A DNA stretch of 43,731 bases from Muribaculum sp. (GTDB lineage: Bacteria; Bacillota; Clostridia; Lachnospirales; Lachnospiraceae): the NCBI GenBank assembly GCA_023663735.1, contig JAMPGV010000020.1:1-43731 (forward strand). Direction: 5' to 3'. The notes under the pieces are model-generated. The model worked only from the letters and a program-made list of their open reading frames with translations. It was not told the DNA's origin and did no database searches. Shown one piece after another: positions 37,481 through 43,050 of this stretch. The position numbers were made by a program, and so were the translations under genes. The stretch's first letter is position 1, and each line of letters starts with the position of its first letter.

Positions 37481-37492
37481 ATTGGCAAACAA
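37481..37492 (+). repeat. Left copy of the 12-bp direct repeat flanking the island
   Basis: ATTGGCAAACAA is repeated exactly at 43262-43273. The two copies bracket the AT-rich gene block. It may be an attachment site or insertion footprint. Confidence 0.5.
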
Positions 37493-37523
37493 TAGAATTC
37501 ACGCTTTGCGAGAATTCTATTGT
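37489..37523. terminator. 12-bp inverted repeat at the island edge
   Basis: ACAATAGAATTC and GAATTCTATTGT are perfect arms around an 11-nt loop. On the minus strand it follows the hairpin at 37535-37569; together they may end transcription from the island. It overlaps the left direct repeat and could alternatively be a recombination site. Confidence 0.5.
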
Positions 37524-37534
37524 TATGAATTATA

Positions 37535-37569
37535 AGGGGCTGTCGCTTTAAATTAGCGCGACAGCCCCT
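37535..37569 (-). terminator. Hairpin at the end of the 217-residue protein gene
   Basis: AGGGGCTGTCGC and GCGACAGCCCCT form a perfect 12-bp stem that includes the last codons and stop of the gene. The following TTATAATT is only a weak U-tract. Confidence 0.6.
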
Positions 37570-38201
37570 GCTTCCCCGTCTTCCCTATATTCCGCGAGAA
37601 CCTTCTCAAATCTCGGCTGATTATACAACTCCAAATGATAAAATATTTTTGCATATGCCCAAATGTCATAGTGATAACACTCTCGCCGCTTAAAGCTACA
37701 CCTATGATGCGTCCTGCACAGCGCGTTCAGTAAATTCAGCTGATATTCCTGCGTGTCGCAAATATTCTCATCAACAGCTGGCATCACCATATCGAAATGC
37801 TCCTTGAGGTAAACTTTCATCCGCTCTTTTTTATCAGAAGGAACGTCTACCTCCTTGCCCCAATTATATATCATATAAAATTTGATTACATTCAGTCCCA
37901 CATGCAGGGCAAACAAACTGTTTGCCCTTGGCGCCCCGGAGCCATCCACGCAGACAATCGGCTGAAGTTCAATGACCGCTCCGCAAATGCAGGATGCCAG
38001 TTTATGCCTGTCCAGTCTCGGATTAGACATATGCTGATTTGCACTATCTCTATACTCCTCGAATTTTTTACCCAGATCATAGAAAACCTTTTGATCACGC
38101 ACACAATAGCCGGGGAGTCTATCGCATATTGATTGCAACAATTCGCCAATAATGTAATCAAAGAATAGCTTATATGTGTTTGATGGACATGTCCTTTTCA
38201 T
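37548..38201 (-). CDS. Unrecognised 217-residue island protein
   Basis: I do not recognise this protein. It is soluble, rich in Cys, His and aromatic residues (for example RTHHRCSFKRRECYHYD near residue 165), and probably mostly helical. It starts 14 bp after the 61-residue gene with AAGGAG upstream, so the two form one unit. It lies inside the AT-rich island, next to the candidate defence genes, so it may be an accessory factor or part of a toxin-antitoxin-like pair; this is only suggested by position. Confidence 0.7.
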   Translation of the reverse strand: MKRTCPSNTYKLFFDYIIGELLQSICDRLPGYCVRDQKVFYDLGKKFEEYRDSANQHMSNPRLDRHKLASCICGAVIELQPIVCVDGSGAPRANSLFALHVGLNVIKFYMIYNWGKEVDVPSDKKERMKVYLKEHFDMVMPAVDENICDTQEYQLNLLNALCRTHHRCSFKRRECYHYDIWAYAKIFYHLELYNQPRFEKVLAEYREDGEAGAVALI

Positions 38202-38215
38202 TTGTATCCTTCTCC

Positions 38216-38401
38216 TTAGTCAAATGAAAAGAATTCTTCCGTTCCATCAGCATACCGAAATTTGTGCCGGGGTACCGTACCGCCGCCGCAAAACTCTAAT
38301 ACCATTCCAAAATCATAATCGTCGTTATGATTTTGACAGTCCCTCGCTTGATTCTCATCCAAGGACGCCAATGCGTTTAACATGTTTTCTGCCGCCAGCA
38401 T
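38216..38401 (-). CDS. Unrecognised 61-residue island protein
   Basis: The short acidic product (MLAAENMLNALASLDENQ at the start, EEFFSFD at the end) has no recognised domain. GGAGGG precedes the ATG at 38401, which is preferred to an upstream codon. It is led by a good promoter at 38544-38572 and followed at 14 bp by the 217-residue gene. Confidence 0.65.
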   Translation of the reverse strand: MLAAENMLNALASLDENQARDCQNHNDDYDFGMVLEFCGGGTVPRHKFRYADGTEEFFSFD

Positions 38402-38543
38402 AGTTTTCCCTCCAGTTTCCCACACTTTCCAGAATAAATTTCATTATTCGAATGGATCTTGCTATTTTATGCTTATGCACCATTCACAAATATGTGCAGT
38501 TTTTCCATAATCTTTTTGATACTAGGTTCTTCTCAGTATTAAT

Positions 38544-38593: not shown

Positions 38594-40036
38594 TTATCCG
38601 ATCGTCAAAGACCGCATCAAGCCTCTATGAACGATACATTCATGATCTTCGATAAATGTCTCGCGGGGGTTTCTGTACTTGAATACAGTATACTCTTTCG
38701 ATTCTTTGGGACGATGCTGCCCTATATATCCATCATTAAACATCTTTTTTAATAGCTCTACTGCATCCACTCCTACAAATTCCTTGTGTTTATCACATTC
38801 CTGCTTAAACGTCTTCACATCAAAGAACTGCTGCCCGATCCTTGACAATACGGTTGGTAAAATCGTCACGACCGCATCTGGAAAGAACCCCGTCAACTCA
38901 TCTTGCATAGCGCTCACAAAATAGTCATTAGAATATTTGTACAAAATTGTTTGAATCATGTTCTCACTAATTCTGGAGCCGTTCACAAATACTTTCTGTG
39001 CCTCCAGCATTAATTGCAAGATATCTCTCGGACGATAAATAATATTATCCAGCACATACTCCAAAGAAGATTTTGAATCAACAACCGGTTGAAAAATCTG
39101 ATTCCATATACTCATGAAATCTTCCTCTTCCTCCCATACATTATCAAATCTCTTTTTCACCAGCTGGATCAGTCTGGACGAGGCAGCCTCGCTGATATCC
39201 TCAATTCTCCAATCCAGTTCAATCTTTGAATCCCGCAGAATTTTTGTAATATTGGGATCCCTACAGATAGTCAAAATATCCGATCTGATAAATATGATGA
39301 TTTTTAAGAAAAAAGTTCCCTTTCTGAAAAAAGAATTAATTTCGTCACAAGCCCGTATTAATCCGGTGAGTACCTTGGGTTCAAAATTGTCCACACTCAA
39401 AATATCGTCCAATCCGTCCACCAGCAGATAATGTTTGGACGATCCAAAATACAAATTTTTAATACATTTTCTGACGGCCAGATAAATCTCTTCCGTTCCC
39501 TGCAATACTTTCTCATGTTCTTTTCTGCTGTCTCTGCCAAAGAAACTTTTTAGATTAAAAGAAGTATTCGTTTCAACCAGCTTTGTCACCGTTCGCGCAA
39601 TGTCATCTGTTTCCAGCAACCCGTTTACGCGAAGCGCTTCCACTAATGTATTGAAAAAATCATTGGAAACATGCACCTGCTTCTCGTTAATCAGTTTAAT
39701 CGCCTCAATCATCAAGATACACTTCCAAAATGATATATACGGATTGCCGCCCAGACTCTGATACGTTTGCAACTGTTCAAACGTTATATTATTAAAATTA
39801 TTTAACGTTTTCTTTGCGGTATAAATATCCCGTTTTCCTTCGAGCAGGCTTATCTTCGCACTATACGCAGTCTTCCCGTCGCCTTTCCTTCCGCTCACAA
39901 TATATTTGTCACCGTCTAACAGTTCACCGATATTATTGTCCGGATCAAAAAAGGAATCAATAAACAGTTCCGGATTTCTTTCCGCCTCCTTTTCTGAATC
40001 AGCCTGCCCTAAAAATACCTCTTTGAAATTGCCCAT
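38594..40036 (-). CDS. P-loop ATPase (Sll1717-like)
   Basis: In this 480-residue protein an ATP-binding domain is marked by Walker A GRKGDGKTA (49-57) and a Walker B-like YLLVDGLDD (203-211). The N-terminal pattern NPELFIDSFFDP followed by the P-loop resembles the Sll1717 group of P-loop ATPases; the C-terminal part (about 350-480) seems to be a winged-helix-like region. Such proteins are frequent in variable islands. GGAGGG is 7 bp before the ATG. It follows the Gre-like gene by 76 bp. It could sense infection or act on nucleic acid, but no effector domain is visible. Confidence 0.8.
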   Translation of the reverse strand: MGNFKEVFLGQADSEKEAERNPELFIDSFFDPDNNIGELLDGDKYIVSGRKGDGKTAYSAKISLLEGKRDIYTAKKTLNNFNNITFEQLQTYQSLGGNPYISFWKCILMIEAIKLINEKQVHVSNDFFNTLVEALRVNGLLETDDIARTVTKLVETNTSFNLKSFFGRDSRKEHEKVLQGTEEIYLAVRKCIKNLYFGSSKHYLLVDGLDDILSVDNFEPKVLTGLIRACDEINSFFRKGTFFLKIIIFIRSDILTICRDPNITKILRDSKIELDWRIEDISEAASSRLIQLVKKRFDNVWEEEEDFMSIWNQIFQPVVDSKSSLEYVLDNIIYRPRDILQLMLEAQKVFVNGSRISENMIQTILYKYSNDYFVSAMQDELTGFFPDAVVTILPTVLSRIGQQFFDVKTFKQECDKHKEFVGVDAVELLKKMFNDGYIGQHRPKESKEYTVFKYRNPRETFIEDHECIVHRGLMRSLTIG

Positions 40037-40112
40037 AAAGATTTCCCTCCGTATTTCAATTCTCCCCTTATGTATAAGCGCTCATCTTCCCTTTAGGCGT
40101 TCGGGCATCATT

Positions 40113-40799
40113 TCATACCTCCAACTCAGCAATCACTACTTCTTCCCTTGTATTTTCCGAAATAATTACCCGATCGCCCTTCTTCCTCCCTAATAGCACT
40201 TTCGCTAATGGCGTCTGTTTCGAAATACAGAAAATGTTTTCCCCATCCACCACGATTTCCATGCCGCCAATATAATTAACAATATAGTAAACTTCTCTTC
40301 CTCCATACGCGTCTAATAACGTTACAACCGACTCTATAGAAACGGTGCTTTTGCTATCTGCCCGTTGTATTTCTCTTATCTGGTATTCGAGATACTGCCG
40401 ATCCTCCTCAACGACTATGCTATCGCCTACTCCTGCCCCCACAAAAGCTCCTATATATTTATCTGGAATTCTTGCTTCGCCCGTCGTCAAAAGAGCAAAT
40501 TTATCTGTTCGTTGATATTCCTTATTTACAATTAAATCTGCATAAACAATGTCAGACATATTGGCAAATCGCTTATCTTCCCGCAGACTATTTATATATT
40601 GTTCCAGTTCCTTTACTTCTCTTAAACATCCATCGGCCAGCCAAGCTGTTTCTGTTTTGGAAGAGTCGTATCTGGTAACCATTCTCCCCTCTGCCTCAAT
40701 CGTATCATTTTTAGCCACCTCATAGCTAGCCTTAGCCTTTTCCAATTTCCTTTCGATAGCTTGTATATAGGCTTCTTTCAGTTTCGTTTTGTCAAACAT
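40113..40799 (-). CDS. GreA/GreB-like transcription factor
   Basis: The 228-residue protein has an N-terminal coiled coil (about 5-75) broken by an acidic turn (DTIEAEGRMVTRYDSSKTE, about 32-50), like the finger of Gre factors that enters the RNA polymerase channel. Residues 170-228 fit the GreA/GreB C-terminal FKBP-like domain (EIVVDGENIFCISKQTPLAK, LLGRKKGDRV). A middle insert of about 90 residues makes it longer than GreA (about 158). It lies 14 bp after the radical SAM gene. Gre factors make the polymerase cut back blocked RNA ends, which fits a protective role in this operon (inference). Confidence 0.75.
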   Translation of the reverse strand: MFDKTKLKEAYIQAIERKLEKAKASYEVAKNDTIEAEGRMVTRYDSSKTETAWLADGCLREVKELEQYINSLREDKRFANMSDIVYADLIVNKEYQRTDKFALLTTGEARIPDKYIGAFVGAGVGDSIVVEEDRQYLEYQIREIQRADSKSTVSIESVVTLLDAYGGREVYYIVNYIGGMEIVVDGENIFCISKQTPLAKVLLGRKKGDRVIISENTREEVVIAELEV

Positions 40800-40813
40800 A
40801 TCTATTCCTCTTT

Positions 40814-41659
40814 CTATTCTTCCATTATAAAGTGTGTACGCTCCTCATGAAGTTCTTTTTGATATAATTCATGCATCCACAGATGTTTTAAATCATCCAC
40901 CAGTACATTCCCTATGATTTGGTCTTGCAAATGATAGGATATCTTAACGTCAGCATTTGGAAAAATCACAAAATACGCTGCTTCTATATTATCTCTCCCA
41001 CTTATAGAAAGCAATACATCTTTACCTTCCATATATTTGCGCATATCTTGTGCTGCTTGCTTAAAATCATCATCTGCAATAGAAAATTTTCCGTTAAATT
41101 CTTTTGCATTCCCTCTCAGGGGAACAAACTGAAATAATTTCCATCGATCAACAGAGTAATGTGTGATAATGTCAGCAATTTCAAAAATAGACTGAAAATT
41201 AATACAACTGACTAATGTATTGATTTTAATTCTACACTTTCTTCTTTTATAATGCAATGCATATTCCAAAACTTCTATTACACGATTAAAATGATTTGAA
41301 TTCCTAGTCATTTCACTTTGAATGTTTTCTGTTGCTCCATCCAACGATAATGTCAACCAGTCCAAGTTTTCAAGGCAAAAATCACGCACCTTACCTTCCA
41401 ATAAGATGGCATTTGTTGTTAAAGACACAATAAGTCCTTGGTTTTTAGCATATTCTATTAAGGTTTTAATTTCTGGAAGCAGCAACGGTTCGCCACCAGC
41501 AAATGTCAATTTTTGAATTCCTGATAACGCCACTTTATCAATCACTTTTTTTCTGTCTTCAAAATCTAAATCCAAAGACACCTGATCCCTATAACAAAAC
41601 TCGCAATTATCATTGCACCGCCTTGTTATATTCCAACAAACAGAATTTGGCATTTTCAT
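40814..41659 (-). CDS. Viperin-like radical SAM enzyme
   Basis: In this 281-residue protein the 4Fe-4S/SAM site is C15-x3-C19-x2-C22, with GGEP at 55-58. Several places resemble viperins: Lys50 just before the GGEP strand, IKINT with Lys145 and Asn147, DRWKLFQ with Arg172 and Lys174, and RDN..EAAYFVIFP with Tyr229. From memory these correspond to the nucleotide-contacting positions of animal viperin. SLDG at 105-108 is more like ordinary radical SAM proteins, so it may be a distant viperin relative. Viperins turn CTP, GTP or UTP into 3'-deoxy-3',4'-didehydro chain terminators. Its ATG overlaps the DUF4062 stop (ATGA). Confidence 0.75.
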   Translation of the reverse strand: MKMPNSVCWNITRRCNDNCEFCYRDQVSLDLDFEDRKKVIDKVALSGIQKLTFAGGEPLLLPEIKTLIEYAKNQGLIVSLTTNAILLEGKVRDFCLENLDWLTLSLDGATENIQSEMTRNSNHFNRVIEVLEYALHYKRRKCRIKINTLVSCINFQSIFEIADIITHYSVDRWKLFQFVPLRGNAKEFNGKFSIADDDFKQAAQDMRKYMEGKDVLLSISGRDNIEAAYFVIFPNADVKISYHLQDQIIGNVLVDDLKHLWMHELYQKELHEERTHFIMEE

Positions 41660-43050
41660 TGCATTTTCCCCTGACGTTTTAAATATTTTAAATAATCTGT
41701 ATGCGAATCGATAAGCATTTTAGCAATATAATCTTCACAAAATTCTTCTGTCGCTTCTTTCCGATTCTGCATATTATATTGTTCAACCGTACTCTTAATA
41801 ATTTTCTTCATTTGAATTAATGTCAATGGTTTCGCAGGAAGCTTCACCGCAATTCGTTCCTGTGAACACTCAGTATAAGGATGAATTTTTTGTATTTCAC
41901 ATACATATGCTGCGTCAAAATGTCTTAAATGACGCTTTTCGTGATAGCACTTTGCACTACCATCTTCTACAAACAGATAATTATAATGTGGTGGGCGACA
42001 GATTGTAAACTGGGCAGAAAATTCACCCGAATAATGATTATAGCTCGAATATAAATCAATGGGCCATACATCCAATCCAGCCTCTACCTTTGCTTTCATA
42101 ATTGCTGTTACCTCAGGAGAATCCTCATCCACAAATGCATGTCCTCCAGGAAACATGAATCGCCCGCCTTTAGAGTATGCTGAATTACAAACAAGATACG
42201 TCGTAATCACATTTTCTTCTTTATCGTATATAAAAGGAATACATGTACCCGTCAATGCGGTAGACGACCCGTTAAAAACTGGCAGTACTCCCTTAAATAC
42301 ATCTATTGTACCTTGCGTTAATTTCTTTATTTCTTTGTTTAGCCTTTCAATTTGAGCATTCTTTTCCCTAAGTTCTTTTTTCACCTCATCGCCGTCAATC
42401 AGTCCATCAATGTCTGCACCATCTATTATTAAGCGATTCTGAATGTGAGAAAATATCTGTATAATGCTACTGCTTATTCCACTAGAATGATTCGCATCAT
42501 AAGTTGCAAACCACTGACGCTCGACTTGCGATATTAACTTATTATACTTTTTCTGTCCCTTCTCATAATCATTTAAAAGCTTCTTCCGTTTTTGCATATT
42601 TATATCTTCTTCATCAGGTTTTGATGATATAAAAACATCAAGTCGCTTGTGAAACCCCTTCTCATTTTCAATATTCTCTTGTACAATACAATAAGATAAT
42701 ATGTTTTTATGCTTAGCATATAAATACTCAAAATGCGTATAAGAAATACTACAATTCCCTGTCTTATTCCGCTTCGCATCACAGCAGCTCTGTACCGGAC
42801 ATTCCACACACCCAAGTCCTTCTCCTATAATACTGCCATAGGTAAATCCTAAAACAAAAATTACAACATCAGCATGATCCAAATTATCTTTCATCACATC
42901 TATACTTGTCTGCCCATGGTTCCCGGAAAACCCTTCCATAGCAACCGGAATATGACCGTTCCTCCAAATAAGCTCCCGCAAGATAGTACGTTCTTCGTCC
43001 ATCATAGCGCCAACAGATGAAACAAATATACGAAGTCTTTTTTTATCCAT
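41656..43050 (-). CDS. DUF4062 domain - coiled coil - degenerate Nudix fusion protein
   Basis: In this 464-residue protein residues 5-125 match DUF4062 (RIFVSSVGAMMDEERTIL; VIFVLGFTYGS; SYTHFEYLYA), a domain found in NTPase-linked defence and signalling proteins. A cysteine-rich insert (Cys81, 84, 89, 90, 100) lies between YGS and SYTH. A coiled coil (about 221-246) leads to a Nudix-like domain (about 250-400) with FPGGHAFVDEDSPE, but the REUxEE part of the Nudix box reads MKAKVE, so most metal ligands are gone. It may bind rather than hydrolyse nucleotides. GGGAGAG precedes the ATG; it is the first gene of the island operon. Confidence 0.8.
   Translation of the reverse strand: MDKKRLRIFVSSVGAMMDEERTILRELIWRNGHIPVAMEGFSGNHGQTSIDVMKDNLDHADVVIFVLGFTYGSIIGEGLGCVECPVQSCCDAKRNKTGNCSISYTHFEYLYAKHKNILSYCIVQENIENEKGFHKRLDVFISSKPDEEDINMQKRKKLLNDYEKGQKKYNKLISQVERQWFATYDANHSSGISSSIIQIFSHIQNRLIIDGADIDGLIDGDEVKKELREKNAQIERLNKEIKKLTQGTIDVFKGVLPVFNGSSTALTGTCIPFIYDKEENVITTYLVCNSAYSKGGRFMFPGGHAFVDEDSPEVTAIMKAKVEAGLDVWPIDLYSSYNHYSGEFSAQFTICRPPHYNYLFVEDGSAKCYHEKRHLRHFDAAYVCEIQKIHPYTECSQERIAVKLPAKPLTLIQMKKIIKSTVEQYNMQNRKEATEEFCEDYIAKMLIDSHTDYLKYLKRQGKMQ

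Follow-up and report, generated by a model that had tools for sequence, protein, structure and literature searches.

A probable cluster of separable defence modules in a Lachnospiraceae genome, with a DUF4062 gene overlapped by a viperin-like gene

DUF4062 proteins have been described as TIR-like NADases that hydrolyse NAD+ and defend against phage, in a system named Swarozyc whose defence requires a catalytic Glu (PMC13174449, a 2026 preprint). The sequence record of phage P2 states that its cloned Fun(Z) gene blocks the growth of T5, and Fun/Z inhibited many phages in the BASEL study, which called the mechanism unknown (PMC8594841). GreA/B domains are reported to occur in prokaryotic conflict systems (PMC9503650). 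Here we describe four adjacent genes, numbered 1 to 4 in the direction of transcription, that encode a DUF4062 protein, a viperin-like radical SAM (S-adenosylmethionine) enzyme, a protein with a Gre C-terminal domain and an ATPase of the Fun(Z) family. They lie at the end of a contig of 43,731 nucleotides (JAMPGV010000020.1 in assembly GCA_023663735.1, deposited as Muribaculum sp. and placed in the Lachnospiraceae by GTDB), all of which was analysed and is called the window below.

With moderate confidence we read this locus as a cluster of separable defence modules gained by horizontal transfer, namely a pair formed by genes 1 and 2, gene 3, and a stand-alone gene 4. The reading is built on gene structure, family membership, residues kept and lost, and the absence of co-occurrence. 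There is good support for an antiviral role of the gene kinds present (DUF4062, viperin-like radical SAM and Fun(Z)-family ATPase), and since the set of four was not seen together elsewhere, the locus probably holds several adjoining defences, in two or three modules. A preliminary description of this DNA had instead proposed one new antiviral operon with its own promoter, and had held that the idea would fail if homologs of the four genes rarely occurred together. The antiviral kinds of gene stand, and the single four-gene system is not supported.

The layout was described correctly at the outset. All four open reading frames (ORFs) are on the minus strand and intact, without internal stops; genes 1 and 2 overlap by 4 bp (ATGA), and the gaps between genes 1/2, 2/3 and 3/4 are thus -4, 14 and 76 bp. 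The island is indeed AT-rich, genes 1-4 having a G+C content (GC) of 0.335-0.406 where the conserved signalling genes (33-37 kb) have 0.482-0.553. Tight spacing means little by itself here, because the gaps in the neighbouring signalling operon (-4, 9, 12 and 17 bp) are as small as those in the four-gene set. The proposed promoter is not supported, as the nearest upstream match (43173-43144, 9/12) is one of 29 in the region, while shuffled sequences give 20.5 +/- 4.2; an Rfam search gave no match. Twenty other genomes were searched for the conserved signalling flank, and four loci in congeners (L071-L074) were picked from the 16 that gave some match; genes 1-4 were absent beside the flank in all four, and the set is therefore a strain-variable AT-rich insert at that place, for which horizontal acquisition is the best explanation.

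The co-occurrence of the four genes was examined by tblastn (E <= 1e-3) at 14 loci with radical SAM/viperin relatives (on 13 distinct contigs), seven with gene 4 relatives and 27 with DUF4062 genes, the last mostly with flanks of about 1.5 kb. None of the 14, the 7 or the 27 had a second member of the set, counts in which the number of independent loci is slightly lower because L007 and L008 look identical and L033 and L041 are on one contig. In particular, genes 1, 3 and 4 are absent within 8 kb on each side of the closest gene 2 relative (L038), genes 1-3 are absent from all seven opened loci of gene 4 relatives, and none of five opened prokaryotic viperin (pVip) loci contains a DUF4062 match. 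This is evidence against a fixed four-gene system in which a sensor, a maker of chain terminators, a rescuer of RNA polymerase and an ATPase act jointly. The common strand, small gaps and shared low GC agree with such a system, as do the GreA/B domains of conflict systems, but a member of the gene 4 family, P2 Fun(Z), works alone, and with the neighbourhood result this makes it very unlikely. It was rejected as the leading reading on these two grounds. The same null result stays compatible with a pairing of genes 1 and 2, as the searches found no relative with the DUF4062-Nudix fusion.

Gene 1 (41656..43050, minus strand, 464 amino acids) begins with a DUF4062 domain of the TIR-like NADase family (42715..43032; PF13271, E 1.9e-15, 57.2 bits against a cutoff of 24.7). 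A Glu aligned to its E108 (42727..42729), the presumed catalytic residue of an SYTxxEY motif, is present in 14 of the 15 homologs aligned, and the fifteenth is truncated before that site; the other 12 of the 27 DUF4062 loci had no phmmer row and were excluded. E108 would be the equivalent of E97 of the Klebsiella Swarozyc protein KpSwz, with the reservation that the direct alignment of the two ends before E97. An insert of residues 81-100 (42751..42810) that adjoins the presumed active-site Glu carries five Cys (C81, C84, C89, C90 and C100), is absent from the 15 aligned homologs and is possibly a metal or redox site. No Pfam match to a helix-turn-helix (HTH) or winged portal-binding auxiliary domain was found in gene 1, and for this reason we do not class it as a Klebsiella-type Swarozyc protein.

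The preliminary description took gene 1 for a DUF4062-Nudix protein, a nucleotide-linked sensor. The DUF4062 half of that assignment scores above its Pfam cutoff and the Nudix half does not: residues 274-361 (41968..42231) match PF00293 with 17.6 bits, and the C-terminal half scanned alone reaches 19.4, both under the cutoff of 21.1. Around the box, gene 1 is 36% identical over 76 residues to a plain MutT-like protein (L037), whose canonical box aligns with GGHAFVDEDSPEVTAIMKAKVEAGLDV at 42067..42147. In place of the complete Nudix box (REUxEE), and of REVKEE in L037, gene 1 reads MKAKVE, with one added residue ahead, so that the Arg and two Glu are replaced. Given what we take to be the chemistry of Nudix enzymes, this loss favours binding without hydrolysis; judged by its residues, the Nudix-like half is better read as a binding module, and a hydrolysing role is unlikely. 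The fusion is seen at this locus only. A Nudix match was found in none of the 13 other DUF4062 proteins scanned, and the relatives of gene 1 in 9 of 298 other genomes of the family match in the DUF4062 part alone, none having the fusion. Two plasmid records match the N-terminal part, and there were no relatives in the viral contigs or phages searched. The Nudix half by itself matches in 2 of 390 other genomes of the class, of which one is L037; the other, L036, did not come up again in a local tblastn (best E 1.7).

Gene 2 (40814..41659, minus strand, 281 amino acids) is a radical SAM protein (Pfam Radical_SAM, E 4.9e-20) with the CxxxCxxC motif of a 4Fe-4S cluster (CNDNCEFC, 41594..41617), KxN, and the RWK common to viperins (41138..41146). 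KxN and RWK, which we take to be nucleotide-binding in viperins, are of viperin type and are absent from all 14 other radical SAM proteins compared; an exact KxN is missing from two viperin-type rows, and the two rows from E. coli plasmids read AWR in place of RWK. The pVip models are the top PADLOC matches of gene 2 (E 9.3e-45), and NF038283, the prokaryotic viperin model, is its highest-scoring NCBIfam match, with 140.2 bits, where the cutoff is 180 and five curated pVips reach 263-302. In a tree of 27 radical SAM proteins, from which two short partial matches (L042 and L043, of six contig loci) were excluded as they were from the counts, gene 2 pairs with L038 (100/98), its closest relative at 51% identity. 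With other clostridial sequences and the five curated pVips it forms a clade of 11 rows (96/92), within which the curated pVips are a clade of their own (100/99) with gene 2 outside; the bootstrap was unsettled. Viperin-like, the first assignment, is therefore apt, membership in the curated pVips is not, and by sequence gene 2 is a sister line beside, rather than within, the curated prokaryotic viperins. Relatives occur in 16 of 390 other genomes of the class (E <= 1e-15; the majority are other radical SAM proteins) and in eight plasmid records, seven of which were opened; none was found in viral contigs.

The company kept by these relatives is varied. Beside the closest one is a gene whose product has an RNA polymerase alpha C-terminal domain (L038:8993-9631; PF03118, E 3.6e-12). 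In two plasmids of E. coli, the gene for a viperin-like radical SAM enzyme forms a tight cassette with those for a deoxynucleoside kinase and NudI (L030:5968-7978 and L031:5968-7965); a search for genes lying near one another found the L030 cassette in 1 of 5,426 E. coli genomes, that one being the same record. Another relative, 42% identical to gene 2, stands beside U32-peptidase-like, methyltransferase and ATP-grasp-like genes (L032:8811-13943, families assigned by eye). It is this last neighbourhood, together with the NF038283 score below its cutoff, that speaks for gene 2 being a biosynthetic, non-antiviral radical SAM enzyme, with gene 1 acting on its pathway or guarding it. We consider this quite unlikely in view of the viperin-type motifs, the pVip models as top PADLOC matches and the defence-type company of gene 2.

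Genes 1 and 2 would be a translationally coupled pair. The ATGA overlap argues for this, as does the GC content at third codon positions (GC3), which is nearly equal in the two (0.30 and 0.28) vs 0.38 and 0.44 in genes 3 and 4. The plasmid cassettes with a deoxynucleoside kinase and NudI are a parallel for a viperin-like gene in Nudix company. The two genes may therefore be an unreported two-gene unit, a pairing for which there is one locus. A different explanation is that all four genes are unrelated cargo at one hot spot, with genes 1 and 2 made neighbours by the chance of insertion; no relative links any two of the four, and gene 1 is absent beside L038, the closest relative of gene 2. The overlap, which implies translational coupling, the matching GC3 and the plasmid parallel count against unrelated cargo, and we regard it as unlikely.

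Under the modular reading, gene 1 would be a Swarozyc-like effector whose DUF4062 domain destroys NAD+ and aborts infection, and its Nudix-like domain would gate the NADase by binding a nucleotide-type ligand without hydrolysing it. The gene 2 enzyme is predicted to modify a nucleotide, and its product may poison phage replication directly, or may supply or alter the ligand read by gene 1. A stronger proposal makes genes 1 and 2 a new type of defence with two components, in which the dead Nudix domain senses the product or substrate of the viperin-like enzyme and switches the fused DUF4062 NADase. A phage that blocked or stripped the modified nucleotide, or an infection that raised it, would then trigger loss of NAD+, so that nucleotide poisoning and abortive infection would back each other up. 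This we put forward tentatively, as a possibility with the odds against it. A literature search returned nothing that joins prokaryotic viperin and Nudix, nor viperin with ddhCTP (3'-deoxy-3',4'-didehydro-CTP) and Nudix, nor viperin with Nudix and phage, in a search that can miss, as it overlooked Swarozyc in PMC13174449. The parts of the locus are of known kinds; neither the genome nor the literature searches turned up a second DUF4062-Nudix fusion or another case of one overlapped by a viperin-like gene.

Gene 3 (40113..40799, minus strand, 228 amino acids) has a GreA/GreB C-terminal domain (PF01272, E 2.9e-9), and no match to the Gre N-terminal domain was found at E <= 1; the term Gre-like factor, used at first, fits the C-terminal domain. 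Its highest NCBIfam score, 27 bits, is below the cutoff of 139. No full-length relatives were found in plasmids, viral contigs, phages or the 298 other genomes of the family, where weak matches in five genomes are all ordinary GreA by eye. As a putative Gre-type factor it may act on RNA polymerase, and a role as the RNA-polymerase rescuer of a viperin system would be a guess.

Gene 4 (38594..40036, minus strand, 480 amino acids) is a P-loop ATPase, as had been proposed, of the Sll1717 family (NF047389, E 7.7e-84, 282.4 bits, cutoff 75), with the Walker A motif GRKGDGKT at 39869..39892. Phage P2 Fun(Z) belongs to the same family (209 bits against the same cutoff) and is 24.7% identical to gene 4 over 73% of the latter (E 5e-10). 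Further relatives are present in 2 of 298 other genomes of the family, in 23 plasmid records (four opened) and in three phage records, with none in viral contigs; in the four opened plasmids, the two family genomes and P2 their neighbours are other than genes 1-3. Comparison with these relatives suggests that gene 4 is an independent, stand-alone ATPase, which would abort phage infection alone.

Several points weigh against dividing the locus in this way. The gaps of 14 and 76 bp still permit co-transcription of all four genes, and defence genes within one operon can be modular. The borders between modules are drawn from gene distances, from GC3 and from the relatives of each gene taken singly, and in short genes GC3 differences carry little weight. 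The fusion in gene 1 is known from one locus, its Nudix assignment is under the Pfam cutoff, and a single-sequence structure model, of too low quality to be informative (mean predicted local distance difference test score, pLDDT, 42.4), was not used. Finally, because the L032 relative sits among biosynthetic-looking genes, the radical SAM subfamily of gene 2 need not be antiviral.

The AT-rich insert holds two more ORFs, at 37548-38201 and 38216-38425, which have no family match above cutoff and were likewise not found at the four congener loci. A short dispersed repeat of about 44-55 bp lies at 37487-37541, with many listed copies in its own genome and in congeners; it matches its own opposite strand and so is partly palindromic.

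If genes 1 and 2 work together, viperin and a TIR-type NADase, both of which are found in animals, would be joined in one bacterial operon. The dead Nudix domain would then be a candidate link from a modified nucleotide to cell suicide, and cellular monitoring of viperin products could be studied directly with this locus. Should the genes be no more than neighbours, the locus would still be useful as an example of defences stacked together. The tie of gene 4 to P2 Fun(Z) places a chromosomal relative of that protein in a defence cluster.

Among described systems, Swarozyc (as reported in PMC13174449) shares with gene 1 an N-terminal DUF4062 domain with a conserved Glu and a C-terminal auxiliary domain. 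In Klebsiella Swarozyc, however, the latter is an HTH/winged fold that binds the phage portal (PMC13174449), whereas gene 1 has a Nudix-like domain in its place and, unlike Swarozyc, is overlapped by a viperin-like gene. It resembles Nudix hydrolases such as the MutT-like L037 around the box, but the Arg and two Glu of REVKEE are changed. The pVips have CxxxCxxC, KxN and RWK in common with gene 2 and join it in the 96/92 clade, but gene 2 is outside the curated clade (100/99) and under the NF038283 cutoff, and a nucleotide kinase adjoins three of the five opened pVip loci whereas none is beside gene 2. Gene 3 shares the C-terminal domain of the GreA/GreB transcript-cleavage factors but has no match to their N-terminal domain. 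Gene 4 is in the same NCBIfam family (NF047389) as P2 Fun(Z) and the Sll1717-family ATPases, and it differs from Fun(Z) in setting and size, a gene of 480 amino acids in a chromosomal insert vs a prophage gene of 528.

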